From contig NC_049992.1 of the NCBI RefSeq assembly GCF_000003815.2, positions 12,802,354-12,866,353 on the forward strand: a stretch of 64,000 bases of DNA, written 5' to 3'. Positions 1 through 61,192 of the stretch are shown one piece after another. Below the pieces are notes generated by a model. The model saw only the letters and a list, made by a program, of their open reading frames with translations. It was not told the origin of the DNA and ran no database searches. The number at the start of each line of letters is the position of its first letter. Position 1 is the first letter of the stretch. The translations under genes were made by a program, and so were the position numbers. This stretch comes from Branchiostoma floridae. Lineage: Eukaryota; Chordata; Leptocardii; Amphioxiformes; Branchiostomatidae.

Positions 1-1985
<1,985 letters not shown>

Positions 1986-2501
1986 TTTGCGTATGGCGCT
2001 GGTGCCAAGGTCTTTAAAAACCTCCAGCCGATCCAACACCTGGGCTAGTGTACAGTTCTATTTGTCAAAGATAGTTTGGTAACGAAATTGTTGTTCTTGT
2101 CTTTACGTCTACGTCAAGAGAGTTGTGTGTTCTGGATGATCCACCGGTCTTAAGAGCGTTGTAAAATTTCGTTTCTCGGCGATGTTTTAAAATAAGTCCG
2201 TTGTCAGCCTTAGAGTTCCCTATCCTCCTGTTCCACCACACTGAAGCCTACTGGTCCCCTGTCTTAGCCATCCAGCTTTGCTGTTGCATAGTTAAATTTG
2301 CCATACTGCCGTAGGGACTGGTTTTTAACAGTGGGGAGCTGACCTCTAATGGCAGGTATGGCTGTATGGTCGCGTAACAGTGAACCCACCTACCGGCGTC
2401 ACGAGATGTCGTCTCGAACGTTTCCGGACGTCGTGGTGGCGTTCCGAACCACCGTAGCGAGGTTAGCACATTCGTTTTAAAGACAGTTGTGTTCGTACAT
2501 A

Positions 2502-2601
2502 NNNNNNNNNNNNNNNNNNNNNNNNNNNNNNNNNNNNNNNNNNNNNNNNNNNNNNNNNNNNNNNNNNNNNNNNNNNNNNNNNNNNNNNNNNNNNNNNNNN
2601 N
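2502..2601. other. Assembly gap (100 N)
   Basis: Exactly 100 ambiguous bases, the usual placeholder for a gap of unknown size. It lies about 0.5 kb upstream of the Emx start codon, so part of the 5'UTR or promoter may be missing. Confidence 0.99.
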
Positions 2602-4427
2602 TTCTTCACCTATCAAGCCCCGGTACTATGCAAATGACGCCTGTTTGTAACATTGTGAAGCCCAAATGTTGCTGTGTTCCTGATTGGCTAATTGTCACTC
2701 TATTCATGCAGGGACAGACCATTTTTCATTGATTATTAGCATCAGGGACTTTTGATTTAGGACAAAAATATTCCTTTCACCAATGCCTGGGCAACCGATC
2801 AGTGTAGCTTTACTTTAGTAGCAAGCTAAACCGCTGTTTTTCCTATCTTTCAGTTCAGGGGAAATATATCTACGATCCTACAGAAACACCCGCCAGTTTG
2901 TATGTGGAAACGCCCCCCATTTTACGCTCTAATGTGGCAATGATAGGTTGGATGGGGTCAATTGGCGGCCATCTTTGAAGCGACCGGGGGAGCCCATAAC
3001 GAGGCGCTGACAGCTTTCAGGTGCAGGTAACTTCAGACAAGATCTGATAACCGCACAGAAAACATAAACAAACATGGCGGATTGGTCCCAAGGTCACGTG
3101 TAACGGGCTTCTCTCACACACAAGTCCTGTAGGGGCCTAACACATCAAGAACAGCGTCGTAAACCACATTTAGTCGACATGAAAAGCTTTTTACGAGGGG
3201 AATTCTTCGTCTGTAGGGTTTTCTAAGCTTCCAAGTGTCCGAGAAGGTAGTCTCGGAGGGACGTATCCGTTTCAGGGGTGGACAGTGATAAGAGGTGTTT
3301 GTGTGTCACAGTTCACACACAGACAGCCCATTTTAGGTCAAACCTGCTCACAATTACCCTGATGATAATGTTGGCGGGTTATGGAAAAATAGAACAATGT
3401 TTTCATGAAACTAAAATGACACAAGATAGAACAGTAATACTTGCTGTGATCATGCATATCTTATTTTGTACAAAACAGCAAAATTAAGCACAGGAAACGT
3501 GCTTCGTTCTACTAGTGCTGATAGACTCAGAGAGAGGGAAGAGAGTGGTGGTAATAGGTTAGCGAATGAAAAAAAGTTAGTGCGACAGAAAGTAGCAAGT
3601 CTTTTCAAGATATTTCAAAACCTTGAAACAAAATCAAAAGGAATTGCTGGACGTGATATGTGTAGAATATCTAACCGATTTAATCCATAATATGTAAAAC
3701 TACATTTTTATCTAGTTATGTAGAGAAATGGCAACACAAAGTCTGACATTGACTATGGAAAGAACGCAGACATGTGCATCGGTGCGTACGCACAACAGTA
3801 AGTTGGAAATACTTATAGTATAGAAAGCTATAAGGCGCAGAAAAGTACCATAAAAAACCTCCTTGCATATAAATTACACATTTTCTGAGGGTAAGCGTTG
3901 GCATTAGTCCTCTTTATAGCTATACATGGACAGAAACTACGTACTCGTAACGGTCACAAATCATCATCATTAAATTGTGGTCATATTTTCATTATTTTGC
4001 TTAGCCTCATTTGGCATATGTATTCTGTTATCTGAATTGATGATAAGCTGATCGGTGGATCGTTTACTGGCTTGCTTTCAGTCTTGTTTACAACGTTATT
4101 CAATTGATCAATTGTAGGAATAGCTTGGAATATATTTGGCAGTCAGTAACATGGAGATTTCTTTTTTGGTTTCTCCAGCTGTAACACGTTTGATAAAGCT
4201 AACAGGGAAACGATCCGAAGACCATTGAAGGAAAAGAAATTTAATTTTTAATAGTTGCGTTCCCTGTTATTTGTGGTTGTCCGAGACCGACAGATCTGAA
4301 ATTTCTGAAAAGAAAAGAGTTAATGACTTTAGTTTCTAACCACATTTCTTACATGCCAATTAATTAAAAAATGTGGTAGTGAGAAAATTAGCGTCAAAAT
4401 AATCGTATGACCTGTTGCCACCTTTGC

Positions 4428-17609: not shown

Positions 17610-17709
17610 NNNNNNNNNNNNNNNNNNNNNNNNNNNNNNNNNNNNNNNNNNNNNNNNNNNNNNNNNNNNNNNNNNNNNNNNNNNNNNNNNNNNNNNNNNN
17701 NNNNNNNNN
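17610..17709. other. Assembly gap (100 N) at the edge of the satellite
   Basis: Exactly 100 N directly before the reverse-oriented satellite arm, suggesting collapse or failure to assemble the repeat. Confidence 0.99.
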
Positions 17710-27944: not shown

Positions 27945-28122
27945 TTTAATACACAAGCTTTCTAATTCCTAGATCTATCAAAATGATATATTATAGGTTA
28001 GTCCGATTGTAACCAGCACAACTTACACTATTGATGTTGATTGCATTAGACCATAGCCTGAAATCTGTCTAAAACCATTCTTTTGTGATGCTTAACAGTT
28101 CTGGGTTGTTCCAAATTGAAAG

Positions 28123-29454
28123 ATGGCAAGAAATGGCGCCGAGGGATCTTCGGTACATGAGTACGAAGACGTAGACAAGAGGTACGAAGAAAGGGATGGC
28201 AAAGATGTCTTTGTGCTGAGTTCCGGGCTGAAGCGGCAAGTCCCCAGAGTACCACCAACTCGTCATCGTGACAAAGACGAAGACCAGAAGTACAAAGACG
28301 AAGACAAGAAGTACGAAGACGTAGACAAGAAGTACAAAGACGAAGACAAGAAGTACGAAGACGTAGACAAGAAGTACGAAGACGTAGACAAGAAGTACGA
28401 AGACGGTAAGAATTGTTTTGCATTGAGCTCCGGGTTGAAGCGCAAAGTCCCCAGAGTACCACCACCTCGTCATCATGACAAAGACGAAAAGTCCCCAGAG
28501 TACCACCACCTCGTCATCATGACAAAGACGAAGACAAGAAGTACAAAGACGAAGACAAGAAGTACGAAGACGTAGACAAGAAGTACGAAGACGTAGACAA
28601 GAAGTACGAAGACGTAGACAAGAAGTACGAAGACGGTAAGAATTGTTTTGCATTGAGCTCCGGGTTGAAGCGCAAAGAACCTGAAGTACCACCACGTCGC
28701 GATCGTAAAAAAGAGTCCAAAGACGTGGACAAGAAAGATGTATCTAACGTGTCCAGCTCTGGACTTAAACGTGAAATGTCCCCGCCTCGAGTCCGCCATC
28801 TTGACATGGGAGATCATGTGGTGGACTATGGAGGGTACAAGGAAGAAACCCACCCAGATGACAGCTACAAACCAGACGATACATACAGGGGTAAAGATGA
28901 GAAGAATTGCTGCTCTGGTCTTGATGCTAAAGGTAGGTCCAAGCCGTTGGATATATAATTTGTCACAATATAAGACTATACTGTTGTAGTGTTGTATATG
29001 TTTGCGTTTTGTAGATATGTAAGCAACTATTTTGTCCTCTCACACACAGATGCAAGCGTGCACAATAACGAGGCACTTGTAATGATATTATGCTTTGTTT
29101 AAGGTGCCCTAGAGTGAGCCAAATTATGAAAACTAGTGCAATTTCTTATCATCTTTTACAACACAGATTGTAGGATTTATTGGTTATTCTTGGAGTCTCA
29201 TATCATTCTGTTGGTAGTACTTTAATGTTTTAATACATATTAAGTAACTACGTGAGAGGGCGATGTAGTATGAAATGGTAGGTGTTGTTTGTGCGGCATG
29301 AAAAAAGGCATTCAGAGATCGCGATACGAAATTAACATATTTCAGCGATAGAAAGTAGCGTTATCGCAATGGAAATATAGGGATGTGTTTTGTGTGTGGT
29401 TTCGCTCTCTCTTTCTTTGTGTGTGCCTGTGTGTGTGTGTGCCTGTGTGTGTGT

Positions 29455-44495: not shown

Positions 44496-46259
44496 TTAAG
44501 GAGCACTCTCCCTGACAGGGTTGACTCTTGCGGCAATGACTTGCGATTGATATCGTCAGACATTTCTGCGAGAGTCAACCCTGTGTGTGGGGGGGGGGGG
44601 GTGCCTAGGTGCTGCAGTCCAGCAATTCAAACACAGACAGGCAAAGACAGACAAATACACAGACAAACCCAAAAGTACTTGGAGTGAAGAAATGATACTG
44701 ACCAAGTCTCGTGTAGATGGTGCTATCGGTTCCAATGCCCCAGACAGCGTGTCCCGACGCGACATTCTTCATCTGCCCCTCGACGTTCACCCAGTCGGTG
44801 CCCGAAGACGCTTCATTCTCGAACGTTCCCGAGCGATAAAAGGTGGCGTTGTTGTGGTCCACTCCCCAGACTCCCTTGGACCCCACCGACACGTACTTCA
44901 TCGAACCGTCAATGGGCTTCCACCTTGGTGCTGAAAAGGACACCAAAATGAGATGGGAATTCGAAGGCGAATAAAAAAAAAATATCTGTAATAGTAACAA
45001 TGTCGAACTCTAGCTATAATTACCTCCGTGAAAAGGAGGTATTGTAGTGACTGTTTGTTTGTCCCGGTGATGGCTGATCGCAAGATAACTATAGAACGCC
45101 TGGATGGATTGTTTCGAAACTAGATGTACGTGGGCAAGTATTTATCATATATAAGACAACGGAATGCTATGGATTATTGGCCCCTGGCGACTTGTTATGT
45201 CACAGAAGCCGAAGTTCCGATTTCGTGTCATGGACATGCTATGGATATGGTTTAGGGAGAGGAAGGGAGAGGACATCGTGTGGGTTTTGGCCCCCAGTAT
45301 TGTGGGGTGGATGTAGGGGACAAATTTGTTGCCAGAGTTTGACGAAAAGCAACTCATGATCAAGAAGGGTTTGGCAGATCGTCGCGATTGTTGGTATGTT
45401 CATAGCTTAAGTAGTGATTTACATAATGATATATGCTTCTCATACAAATCAGCATAATTGTTTAGGAACGTTTACTTGTTTTTTACTTGTAAATCTTACC
45501 TGCCTGCATTACTGTGACGAGCAAATCCTGGTTGTTTGTTAAACTTGCATTCAGTTGATGTGCCTTCGCCATCGCTTGTTCTATCAGGCCTATGGTATCA
45601 ATATGGTATTAATAATCTTTATTGCATCATATTACCCGGAGAGCTATACATGCACACATGACCAAATGGGGCCTGATTCATGTGCGTTAATGAAGATATC
45701 AAAGCCTAGAAAGTTCAAACATTATACACTAGTTTACTAGGTACCATTACACAATAAACTATGTACTGACATACTATATATTATACAATAAGATCAGAAC
45801 CTGTTAGAAATAAGAAGACTTATGTTATGGGTCAAATAATCTATTTGTACCTACACATTCATGAAAATCAATGAAATACTAACTGTTTATCTGGGCAGCT
45901 TCCTGAGAGGTCATTCCGAACGCCTCCTCACCGAACCATAGCGTCACAACACACAGCAGAATGACGGCTTTCACCGCATGCAAGTTCCCCATGTTGACTG
46001 CAATACAGCTAGGGAGAATTAGAAATGTAACATAGAAATATTCTAAGTTTGTCAAAGATTGTATCACCAGAATTCTACCATTATAACTTTCTGACAAAGT
46101 TGCTATGTACCAGTCTAAATACATAATCATTTATTCTGAAGAATCGAGAAAACACAACTTAACATATTGATATAGGATTTTGTCTTTCATTATTAAGTAG
46201 GAATTTAAATCTGAAAAAAACACAGTGGCATGGACACTGTCTAATCTAAAGATGACTTA

Positions 46260-57504: not shown

Positions 57505-60500
57505 ATGATCGTTCGCCATTCCGTCGACCTTGTAGAGGGTCCTCTACCGAACCCAAATCTCCGGGGCAAGCAGCTGGTCGCCCCGGAGGATGGCATGAAC
57601 CACACCGCCTACGATGTCTTTCTCCAGCCGGGCGAAAGCGTATGTTTGACATCGCCCCCCTCCCCCCTCCTGAACCATGTGTACTACTGTGTATCGGGAC
57701 GTGCAACAGGCACAGCATCCAACGGCCAAGTTTACGAGTTCGCCGCTGATGTTGTAGTGGCGTTTTCATCCAGCATCAGTTGTACGGTAAGTATCAAGCA
57801 TTATGTGAGGTTACGACTGTAGGTAATAGCGTTTGACTGTGAAATCCTAGTATGTGACTGTCCCGTGCCACTACTCTGACACCCTTGTCACTTTTTGTTT
57901 GTTTGCATTGACCTCATCATTGACCTTAACGCCAATCGATCTTTGATCATTGTGAAAACAAGTAGGCTATAATCTGTATGGTATAGAGTAACATGTGTTC
58001 ACTGTTGGTCTTGTGCCCTAATAATACACCGACAGGGACTGCTACCCCCTCTATTGAATGATATATCTACTGACCAGGGGACCGGACATGGTTGTCCTTT
58101 CTCTAACCTCTTAGAACACGGAGCCACATATCCAAACGAGGCCCGGACGTGCTGTTTGCAAAGATGAAAAATGAAAGTGTACACGTATAATTAGAAATTT
58201 GCTGATCCCTTTCGTATATTCTATTATCTTTATATCAAATTTTTCGTTTCCTTAAATTGCATGCGCGGCAGGGCTTCGGTGTGAAAAGCCTTTTTAAGGT
58301 GACCTATCATAGCTGCAAAGACTGTAAAGAGTACATGAGTCACAGAGAAAGAATATGCAGGTGAACGTAAAGGATCATTAATACTAGAAATTCAGTGACA
58401 TTTAGTTGTTGCTGTCGTCCTTGTTTTACGTCTATTGCCTAGCCAGACAAGGTGAGTCAATATCTGTAACGGTAGGGTGCGAGAATGAGGTCTTCAGATG
58501 TGATAAATTTGCAAAGTCGCAGAGGCACTGGACAGCAGTGTATATTATGTGTACAGGGATGTGTTCTAAGCCCCTCGCTATTTAATCTGTACGTTAGTGA
58601 TTTAGTTAACGATCTCAATACAGGAGACCTAGATACCCCTCTACTTCATTCATCCAAAGTATCAAGTTTATTTTATGCCGATGACGTTGTCATGTTGTCA
58701 ACAAGTCAACGTGGCCTACAGAACGCAATCAATGTTCTCGGCCTTTACTGCAATAAATGGAAACTAACAGTAAACTTAAAGAAAACGAAAATCATTGTTT
58801 TCAATCGTACGGGACGATTGTTATCAAACTATAAATTTTGCTTATTCGACAAAGACATAGAAGTGGTATCCTCGTACTGTTATTTAGGCGTAGTATTTAC
58901 AGCGGGGTGTAAATTTAACACAGCAATGAAAACCCTCCAAAAGAAGGCACTAAGGGCGCTATTTAGCATAAGAACAACTCTTGGAGGAAACAATGCTTCA
59001 GTACCACTGCAATGTAAGTTATTTGACGCTTGTGTTGTGCCAATATTATTGTATGGTGCAGAAGTGTGGAGCAATTCTAGTTTAAACGACAATTCTCCAT
59101 TAGAGCAAGCACATCTAAAGTTCTGTAAAGTTGTCTTAGGTGTAAGAAGAAATGCCAGTAATCTCGCTACTAGAGCGGAGCTAGGAAGATTCCCTCTATG
59201 GATCGAGGCTTTCAGTAGACTATTTTCTTATCATTGTAGATTAACTAGAGAAGTACCGACAAATAGCATACAATATGAAGCATTTCTTGTACAACAAGAC
59301 CTACACAGACGCAATATACCATGCTGGCTATCTAATGTAAGTAAGATTTTGGAGGAGTCGGGTTATGCATACCTATTGTTAAACAACGGTCGAGATATAC
59401 CATCAATTCAGTCGGAGGTGAAGCAAAGACTGAAGGACATTTACCTTCAAACCTTTTACTCAGGGCTGAACTCCAGTGGTAGGACCGGAAACCAAGGAAA
59501 CAAACTAAGAACATATAGAAAAATCAAACATACCTACGAAAGAGAACAGTACCTTAATATTCAGAATTTCAACCATCGCCGAGCCATGGCTAGATTAAGA
59601 ATCAGTGACCATCCCCTACAAATTGAAGTGGGAAGATACAACCAGACTCCTCCGAATAATAGACTCTGTACACTTTGTAACTCCAACCGTATAGAGAATG
59701 AAGTCCATTTTATATTAGAGTGTCCTTTATACAATGATATGCGCAACTCTTTTATCAGTGCTCTGAATGTAGTAGATACACGATGTAAAGAGTTAACCAA
59801 CGACAACCTGTTTGTACATATAATGACAACCACAGACAACTTTGTACAACACAAACTCTGTGAGTTCGTATACACATGTTTTAAGAAAAGGGAAGAGTCA
59901 GGTAAACGTTAGATATAGTGATAGCTTAGTTGCAGATGTATTGTCTATTCAATTGTAATGTTACAGTACTTAGTCTTTATAATTAGTATCCCATTATGGG
60001 ATTTGCTGCATTTAGCCCACATGGGCAGGAACATGCAAATAAAGATCATTATTAATATATTATCACTAACGATTTGTCGATGCCTGTTGTAAAAAAAAAT
60101 CATGCTGTTGATTTGTATAAATAAAGTGCGGAAATTGATTTGGTTAGGACACCAGCTTATACAACATCTAAACAAAATCTTACAGTCATCTTGGTCTTCA
60201 TTTGAATTTTGTTTATACTATGGTATCGTTTCCTTGATAGGTTAAGGTCACATCTGATGAAAAGCTCCGCCTCTTTTGCATCTATTGTGATGACGTCGAG
60301 CCGACTGTTGATCGGGCCGTGGCTCGGGCGCTTTCGGAGATTGTCGGTACCGATCGTGACATCGACTGGGGCCGAGGCCACAGCCGAAGGTTCCTGAAGA
60401 AGTCGGACGGGTTCCCGATCAGCGTTCACAACACCTATGGAGAGGCTGGGGCAAGCAATGCTCTGTGCTACAAACATCACGTTGAATCTGCCTACTACGT

Positions 60501-61192
60501 GAAAGGTACTTGTATTCGTAGCGTGCAGTACGCTGTATGATTGATAGGAGGCGTTTATGCCTTTATGCACATAGGGCGTACATGTAGGAAAGGTTTTCAG
60601 TATTAACAGGTGGTCATTGTAAATAGGTACTACCCGTCCATCAAAAGCTGACCACAATGACCAAGTGTATTTTGTGAAGATAGACTTTGTGAAGTCGCTT
60701 GTACAGGTTTAACTGTATTACAGTGGAAGCCAGTTAATTGCACAATGGATAATCGCACACTTCTGTTAAATGCACGGAATTCTTAAATCCCGTGGTGGTG
60801 CGGTCCAGCTTAATAACTTCGCTTTGTTGCACCATTCGGATAATTGCACGAAACGCACTGGCAAATGCGTTGTGCAATTAAGCGGCTTTTACTGTATGTC
60901 TAATTTCCTGAGTTGTATATTTTGCTTAATTTACTAAAAAAAAAAACACCAGTCGTTCCCCCTTGTCTCTCGGTTAGGCAGAGCCACCTACACGTGGGAA
61001 GAGGGTGCCCAGAAGGCGGAGACCCGTATAGACGCTACCAACGGAACCGTCTACAGTATGAACGAGCACGACGCACACCACATGGTCGTGCACGAGGACA
61101 TCCAGGCCCTGTGTGTGTTCCACCCGGTCCTGGTTGGCAACGAGAACCACGATTTCAGCGGAGGGTACTCTGGGTTCAAGCCTTCCGAGTGA
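57505..61192 (+). CDS. Ectoine-synthase-like double-cupin protein (EctC-like), 253 aa
   Basis: Exons 57505-57786, 60241-60505 and 60978-61192; junctions are phase 0 and phase 1 and the frame is open to TGA. Bacterial L-ectoine synthase (EctC) is a single cupin of about 130 residues that cyclises N-gamma-acetyl-diaminobutyrate to ectoine. Here two such units are fused. Unit 1 (about 1-110) begins MIVR like EctC and has EDGMNHTAYDVFLQPGE and NHVYYCVSGRATGT. Unit 2 (about 128-253) has HHVESAYYVKGRATYT, GTVYSMNEHDAHHM and ALCVFHPVLVGNENHD, matching EctC EAVYCIEGEGE, GTLYALDKHDxHxL and CVFNPPLTGxExHD. The EctC metal ligands (Glu, Tyr, His) correspond to E176, Y208 and H216; in unit 1 these positions are His, Val and Ser. 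No EctA or EctB is nearby. The acceptor may be at 60247 instead (two residues shorter). Product and substrate in this animal are unproven. Confidence 0.88.
58485..60058 (+). mobile_element. 5'-truncated non-LTR retrotransposon (LINE) in intron 1 of the EctC-like gene
   Basis: A 475-codon frame (58485-59912) holds the back half of a reverse transcriptase: QGCVLSPSLFNLY, catalytic FYADDVVML (YADD at 58674-58685), LQNAINVLGLYCNKW and KTKIIVFN, then a C-terminal zinc-knuckle-like CTLCNSNRIENEVHFILECP. The endonuclease and first RT motifs are missing. The 3'UTR ends with AATAAAGATCATTATTAATA. Open reading frame intact over 1.4 kb, so a fairly recent insertion. Group (CR1/L2-like or other) not certain. 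Confidence 0.92.
60721..60897. mobile_element. pogo/Tigger-like MITE in intron 2 of the EctC-like gene
   Basis: Ends CAGTGGAAGCCAGTTAATTG + CACAA and inverse TTGTGCAATTAAGCGGCTTT + TACTG, flanked by TA. Interior repeats ATAAT(C/T)GCAC. No coding capacity. Confidence 0.75.

Follow-up and report, generated by a model that had tools for sequence, protein, structure and literature searches.

A 64,000-nucleotide stretch of the genome of the lancelet Branchiostoma floridae (NCBI RefSeq assembly GCF_000003815.2, contig NC_049992.1, positions 12,802,354 to 12,866,353 of the forward strand; this whole stretch is called the window below) contains a three-exon gene whose predicted 253-amino-acid product resembles, twice over, the bacterial ectoine synthase EctC, which forms the salt-stress protectant ectoine. 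We propose that this is a genuine gene of the animal, encoding EctC-type cupins fused in tandem, in which one working iron barrel would catalyze ring closure on an N-acetylated diamino acid. The proposal is tentative, and we place it a little short of an even chance. Homology is firmer ground: profile comparisons, at the level of sequence, show both halves of the protein to be homologous to ectoine synthase.

Gene structure and paralogs

The gene occupies the + strand. Its exons (57505-57786, 60241-60505, and 60978-61192) join through GT-AG introns, and the ATG start, the stop codon (61190-61192), and the exon order are found in the window as these coordinates state. Exon 1 encodes residues 1-94, which make up most of an N-terminal, apparently ligand-less, EctC-like cupin, and ends at a GTAAGT donor. 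Exon 2 encodes the end of this N-half, a linker, and the first part of the C-half, as far as YYVKG, including Glu176, the counterpart of Glu-57 in PlEctC, the EctC of P. lautus; tblastn finds matches to this exon at three other loci. Exon 3 encodes the remaining C-half, including Tyr208 and His216 (PlEctC Tyr-84 and His-92), and carries a match to the Pfam Ectoine_synth family (PF06339). Guanine-plus-cytosine content is 0.547-0.591 in the exons and 0.383 and 0.409 in introns 1 and 2, respectively.

The signature that the original prediction, made from the DNA letters, had read in the second half (ESAYYVKG, GTVYSMNEHDAHH, and CVFHPVLVGNENHD) is there: among the splice combinations tried, it is intact in the product of donor 57786, acceptor 60241, donor 60505, and acceptor 60978. 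Neighboring donors and acceptors also give readable variants, of 249-257 amino acids. Thus, the exact junctions rest on agreement among paralogs and not on transcripts.

The paralogs come from a scan of the genome (513 Mb in 431 contigs, with the window on contig C14) using PF06339 and the protein. Exons of EctC-type genes lie at four loci: the window, C11 at ~10.03 Mb, and C8 at ~7.29 Mb and ~18.41 Mb (called C8a and C8b), with individual exons scoring 29-50 bits each against PF06339. All four loci have the double-cupin layout. C8a and C8b specify intact spliced proteins of 255 and 254 amino acids, both double, that are 47% and 45% identical, respectively, to the window copy. Two intron positions are common to the window copy, C8a, and C8b: one at residue 94 (phase 0), the other within the glycine of YYxxG (phase 1; in the window, the GT-AG intron 2 at 60506-60977). 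C8b has one additional intron. Over exons 2 and 3, the C11 and window copies share 92% DNA identity. Exon 1 of the C11 copy (L010, 4002-4284) contains one extra base that breaks the frame, reflecting either a recent pseudogene or an assembly error.

Between the window and C11 copies, the ratio of nonsynonymous to synonymous divergence (dN/dS) is 0.38 over exons 2 and 3. Compared pairwise over whole coding sequences, the three intact copies give dN values of 0.41, 0.51, and 0.30 with dS values, near saturation, of 2.9, 1.9, and 1.4. Because introns are shared across the paralogs and dN lies below dS, the gene model in the window is well supported and the family looks to be under constraint. The original prediction further invoked duplication followed by fusion. 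Homology of the two halves fits that history; however, no single-domain intermediate is seen, since every locus in the genome is double.

Intron 1 of the window copy (57787-60240, phase 0, GT-AG) houses a 478-amino-acid open reading frame for a retroelement reverse transcriptase (58476-59912, + strand; PF00078, RVT_1, 2.8e-15) that is not part of the gene. With this frame inside it, the intron is 2454 bases long in the window copy, versus 181 in the C11 copy.

The two halves and their bacterial relatives

In an hmmscan search, residues 123-247 match PF06339 at 107.3 bits (E 8.4e-31, cut-off 27), and phmmer matches four EctC chains from the PDB over residues 121-249 (E 1.7e-17 to 1.4e-14). Given these two sets of values, chance resemblance of the C-half to EctC is excluded. 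The profile search proposed in the original prediction thus comes out in favor of the ectoine synthase family, and together with the three exons it bears out the description of the gene as an intron-bearing, fused double cupin related to EctC.

The available part of PMC6344544 assigns functions to the ligand and contact residues of PlEctC, including the iron ligands Glu-57, Tyr-84, and His-92. By residue alignment, all three ligands are kept in the C-halves of the window copy (positions 176, 208, and 216) and the C11 copy. C8a and C8b have Phe for the Tyr ligand, which all 82 bacterial rows keep as Tyr. With this change, the two paralogs have probably diverged in their substrate or their activity. 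Five contact residues of PlEctC (Ser-23, Arg-25, Thr-40, Tyr-52, and Phe-106) are conserved in all four animal C-halves.

The N-half is far more diverged. Taken alone, the window N-half has no PF06339 match and scores 19.9 bits against Cupin_2, under the cut-off. The C8b N-half reaches 21.2 bits against Ectoine_synth (E 3.8e-4), under the cut-off of 27, and the C8a N-half reaches 32.8 bits against Cupin_2, above the cut-off of 27.2, with no Ectoine_synth match. Profile-profile comparison is clearer. Specifically, the N-halves align with a profile of 82 bacterial EctC rows at a probability of 97.7 (E 2e-12) across 105 columns, starting at MIVR. Scored singly against the bacterial EctC profile, the three N-halves give 20.4-22.9 bits, and the best of 900 shuffled controls (648 returned a score) gives 10.4 bits. 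When the N-halves are compared with the animal C-halves only, the profile-profile probability is 2.8, so the halves would have parted long ago; BLASTP between the two halves of each animal protein returns E 0.029, E 0.002, and no hit. In the ligand columns, which are approximate because the N-halves joined an alignment that was already fixed, all three intact copies lack a residue opposite Glu-57, show Val or Met in place of Tyr-84, and show Cys in place of His-92. These comparisons support reading the N-half as a diverged EctC-like cupin, more weakly than in the case of the C-half, with homology visible by profile comparison only. The earlier suggestion of a repeated fold in the first half is to that extent upheld, below the Ectoine_synth cut-off for the half alone.

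To place the C-halves among bacterial proteins, we extracted 100 EctC-type sequences; merging identical ones left 90, and L112, a bacterial double form, was set aside. A first tree of 86 rows added the four animal rows and the two L112 halves and dropped 10 near-alike rows of one family. Among the bacterial rows, 54 come from a stretch that also matches EctB (ectB-adjacent) and 28 do not; "solitary" here means no EctB match in the stretch analyzed, which mostly extends 1.5 kb to either side. In the first tree, the animal C-halves are monophyletic (100/99) and, together with 13 solitary rows, are set off by a branch supported at 100/94. In a second tree that omits six long rows (L121, L113, L088, L107, and both L112 halves), the animal C-halves group with 12 solitary rows at 98/91. 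A motif follows the same division: WG.G.S, with W or F as its first letter, is present in all four animal C-halves and in 11/13 solitary-group rows, and in 0/54 ectB-adjacent and 0/15 other solitary rows. The two exceptions in the group, L048 and L055, are extracted sequences that begin too late to show it. By motif and trees, we lean, without proof, toward the solitary EctC group as nearest to the animal C-half.

In the genome_contigs collection, where the patterns were narrow and the scan is thus no census, three relatives were found among 84 stretches; each lacks an EctB match in the stretch analyzed, and each reads GTDRDVDWGNG. Surveys with a profile of the three animal proteins, in which only the best candidates per genome were scored, gave matches in 57/398, 40/396, and 22/41 genomes. 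Among the matches listed in the bacterial genome surveys, none begins before profile position 98, and thus none covers the N-half. With C8b as query, no record among 112 from the plasmid collection covers 80%, and the 48 pattern matches in viral contigs include no relative.

The solitary genes have varied neighbors. L025 adjoins an amidase and a LysR-type regulator; L109 adjoins an amidase and also has sulfopyruvate-decarboxylase-like frames, the latter scoring under their cut-offs; L115 adjoins a PutP-type proline symporter; L121 adjoins an ATP-grasp ligase; and L120 has genes for a GNAT protein and for a tryptophan halogenase nearby. L026 immediately precedes a short EutC-like frame and a gene for the ectoine hydrolase DoeA (634.7 bits, cut-off 613). 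We note that this arrangement (L026, 26-2261) raises the idea that the EctC type there may serve ectoine breakdown or salvage. We also note two tandem EctC matches ~170 bases apart, near 2096 and 2649 of L114 (from the bacterial genome G207), in a stretch that has EctA and EctB matches.

Proposed function and alternatives

EctC is a dimer. The notion is that, in the lancelet protein, the N-half stands in for the second EctC subunit and steadies the one working barrel. Within that barrel, Fe(II) would activate an N-acyl amide, and a nearby amine would then close the ring with loss of water. The most likely substrate would be an omega-N-acetylated diamino acid, either N-gamma-acetyl-diaminobutyrate or a near relative. 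Because EctA has no match in the genome and EctB has only weak ones, we suggest that the substrate could be supplied by diet, by microbes, or by an unrelated host acetyltransferase. The ancestor may never have belonged to an ect operon, given that motif and trees put solitary EctCs closest among the bacterial types; this is the least certain step. We speculate further, and regard it as distinctly doubtful, that fused pseudo-dimers, each with a live and a dead EctC barrel and derived from solitary bacterial EctCs that lie outside the ectoine operon, make or break a cyclic amidine not known from animals, with the Tyr-to-Phe paralogs marking a second chemistry.

Several observations weigh against the proposal. 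The protein scores 107.7 bits against the NCBIfam ectoine synthase model NF009806, below its cut-off of 128. At the place of PlEctC Trp-21, all four animal copies have Gly, and a Trp (Phe in C8a) stands three residues before it. According to the available part of PMC6344544, this Trp is needed for activity, with 9.7% remaining after replacement by Ala, and is displaced by two residues in some orphan EctCs. In our alignment, the place is Gly in 13/13 solitary-group rows, and Trp in 51/54 and Phe in 3/54 ectB-adjacent rows. The link to the solitary group is itself open to challenge. An approximately unbiased (AU) test, run on few columns and with a long animal branch, does not reject placing the animal C-halves with ectB-adjacent EctCs (p 0.298), and a tree constrained to keep those 13 solitary rows separate scores 5.59 log units better than the free tree. 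Consequently, the comparison with bacterial homologs, called for in the original prediction, joins the animal C-halves to solitary EctCs by branch support but does not settle the placement. Two positions also point elsewhere. PlEctC position 38 is His in the window and C11 copies and in 49/54 ectB-adjacent rows, and in at most 1/13 of the solitary group; it is Thr in C8a and C8b and in 3/13 solitary-group rows. Position 104 is Cys in all four animal copies, in 54/54 ectB-adjacent rows, and in 4/13 of the solitary group, the rest having Ser. Moreover, only one of the six solitary-group loci scanned (6 of the 13 rows) has a neighborhood pointing to ectoine.

Pathway partners bear on the proposal as well. 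An EctA model finds no match in the B. floridae genome at E 0.001, which fits a substrate supplied from elsewhere. Such a search could miss a diverged, exon-split EctA, and this possibility counts against us. Nevertheless, EctC exons were found at their individual scores of a few tens of bits, and thus an equally conserved EctA probably would have been seen. An EctB model matches two stretches at 31.7 and 29.7 bits, against a cut-off of 552.2, scores that ordinary aminotransferases would give, and it also finds matches in 14/14 control genomes. Ectoine synthesis is therefore unproven: an ectoine role is possible, and the partner genes lend it no support.

Of the alternatives, the one that fares best, although we consider it somewhat unlikely, is that the gene encodes a cupin put to another use, be it with a new substrate or in binding or sensing, its resemblance to EctC being ancestry only. 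Replacement of the Tyr ligand by Phe in C8a and C8b, at a place where no bacterial row departs from Tyr, would suit such a change, as would an N-half that is ligand-less in every intact copy while dN remains below dS over whole coding sequences, and the diversity of gene neighbors around the solitary bacterial group. Reuse fits less well with the window copy, which retains the ligands and most substrate contacts.

It is unlikely, in our estimate, that the protein is a true ectoine synthase with which the animal completes ectoine for osmoprotection, unrelated host enzymes or microbes performing the EctA and EctB steps. The ligands of the window copy would allow it, its residues at positions 38 (His) and 104 (Cys) are those of most ectB-adjacent EctCs, and the AU test permits a placement among them. 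Two reviews (PMC5924519 and PMC5796728) report, in their available text, ectA- or ectC-related sequences in B. floridae and Saccoglossus, citing Harding et al. for B. floridae, and ectoine production in a ciliate. A solitary EctC from P. syringae yields ectoine in a Halomonas ectC mutant, in a data set that the review, in the portion available, calls not yet conclusive. Set against these points are the lack of an EctA match, EctB matches of a kind found in every control genome, the replacement of Trp-21 in all four copies, and the change of the Tyr ligand in two of the three intact ones.

Finally, a decaying or unexpressed family kept by chance, to which the one-base frame break in C11 exon 1 and the retroelement remnant in intron 1 of the window copy could be ascribed, is highly improbable in view of three intact copies with common intron positions and dN below dS.

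The favored proposal of one working barrel in a tandem protein has consequences that can be put to the test: from the architecture, one barrel should work and the other should not, and the paralogs differ at a metal ligand. Without EctA, any substrate must come from elsewhere. The animal gene may, moreover, be tied to the solitary EctCs, whose function one review, in its available part, describes as unsettled. The reviews list B. floridae among eukaryotes with ectoine-related genes and, in the text available, await proof of ectoine production in such organisms.

The surrounding window and known systems

Elsewhere in the window, an open frame on the - strand (44605-45009) contains a Tectonin domain (7.8e-17) and probably represents one exon of a gene with tectonin repeats. 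At 28046-28958, long open frames on the two strands overlap; they are built from a short repeat unit (RLRTSCLRL / KKYEDVD) and are minisatellite-like. Assembly gaps appear as runs of 100 N at 2502-2601 and 17610-17709.

Among the closest known systems is EctC itself (PF06339; PDB 5onm/5onn/5ono and 5bxx). The C-half of the lancelet protein aligns over the whole of this domain, and the window copy has the Glu, Tyr, and His ligands and most substrate contacts. Unlike EctC, the animal protein carries a second, ligand-less copy in front, has Trp-21 replaced, comes from a genome with no EctA match, and falls below the NCBIfam cut-off. Solitary EctCs (L025 from Rhizobium, L026 from a gammaproteobacterial metagenome-assembled genome, L027 from Longimycelium, L120 from Gloeothece, and L121 from Rhizobium etli) share WG.G.S before the SRR region and are neighbors in the two trees. 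They are, however, single-domain proteins, mostly differ at positions 38 and 104, and are not fixed in a common placement with the animal protein by the AU test.

A double form also exists in bacteria. L112 (G806, 1-3000), the one such case to emerge from the genome surveys, has two EctC domains within one open frame. Its halves, in contrast, are 43% identical to each other and group together at 100/99, and the second has Val for Glu-57. We considered L112 as a relative of the animal double form and rejected it: with its halves grouping with each other, it is an independent fusion.

Among eukaryotes, the available text of the reviews (PMC5924519 and PMC5796728) describes ect genes of Halocafeteria, intron-bearing like the lancelet gene, as well as ectA-ectC fusions in protists, and it names B. 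floridae with ectA- or ectC-related sequences. The fusions described there for protists join EctA to EctC, and once also EctD, whereas the animal protein joins two EctC-type cupins. Horizontal acquisition, which the original prediction proposed for the lancelet gene, is in that text the reading for the protist ect genes. A 2017 paper from the Harding group concerns, in the part available, an ectoine hydroxylase in Halocafeteria, and a microalgae paper reports, in its available part, no EctC homolog in the diatom Phaeodactylum.

Thus, EctC-type genes in lancelets are already known. Among the matches listed from openly licensed PMC papers, judged by title and the start of the abstract, we found no description of a fusion with a ligand-less half. 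As far as we have searched, what is new here is the tandem layout with a ligand-less barrel, the ligand-changed paralogs, and the signature shared with solitary EctCs.

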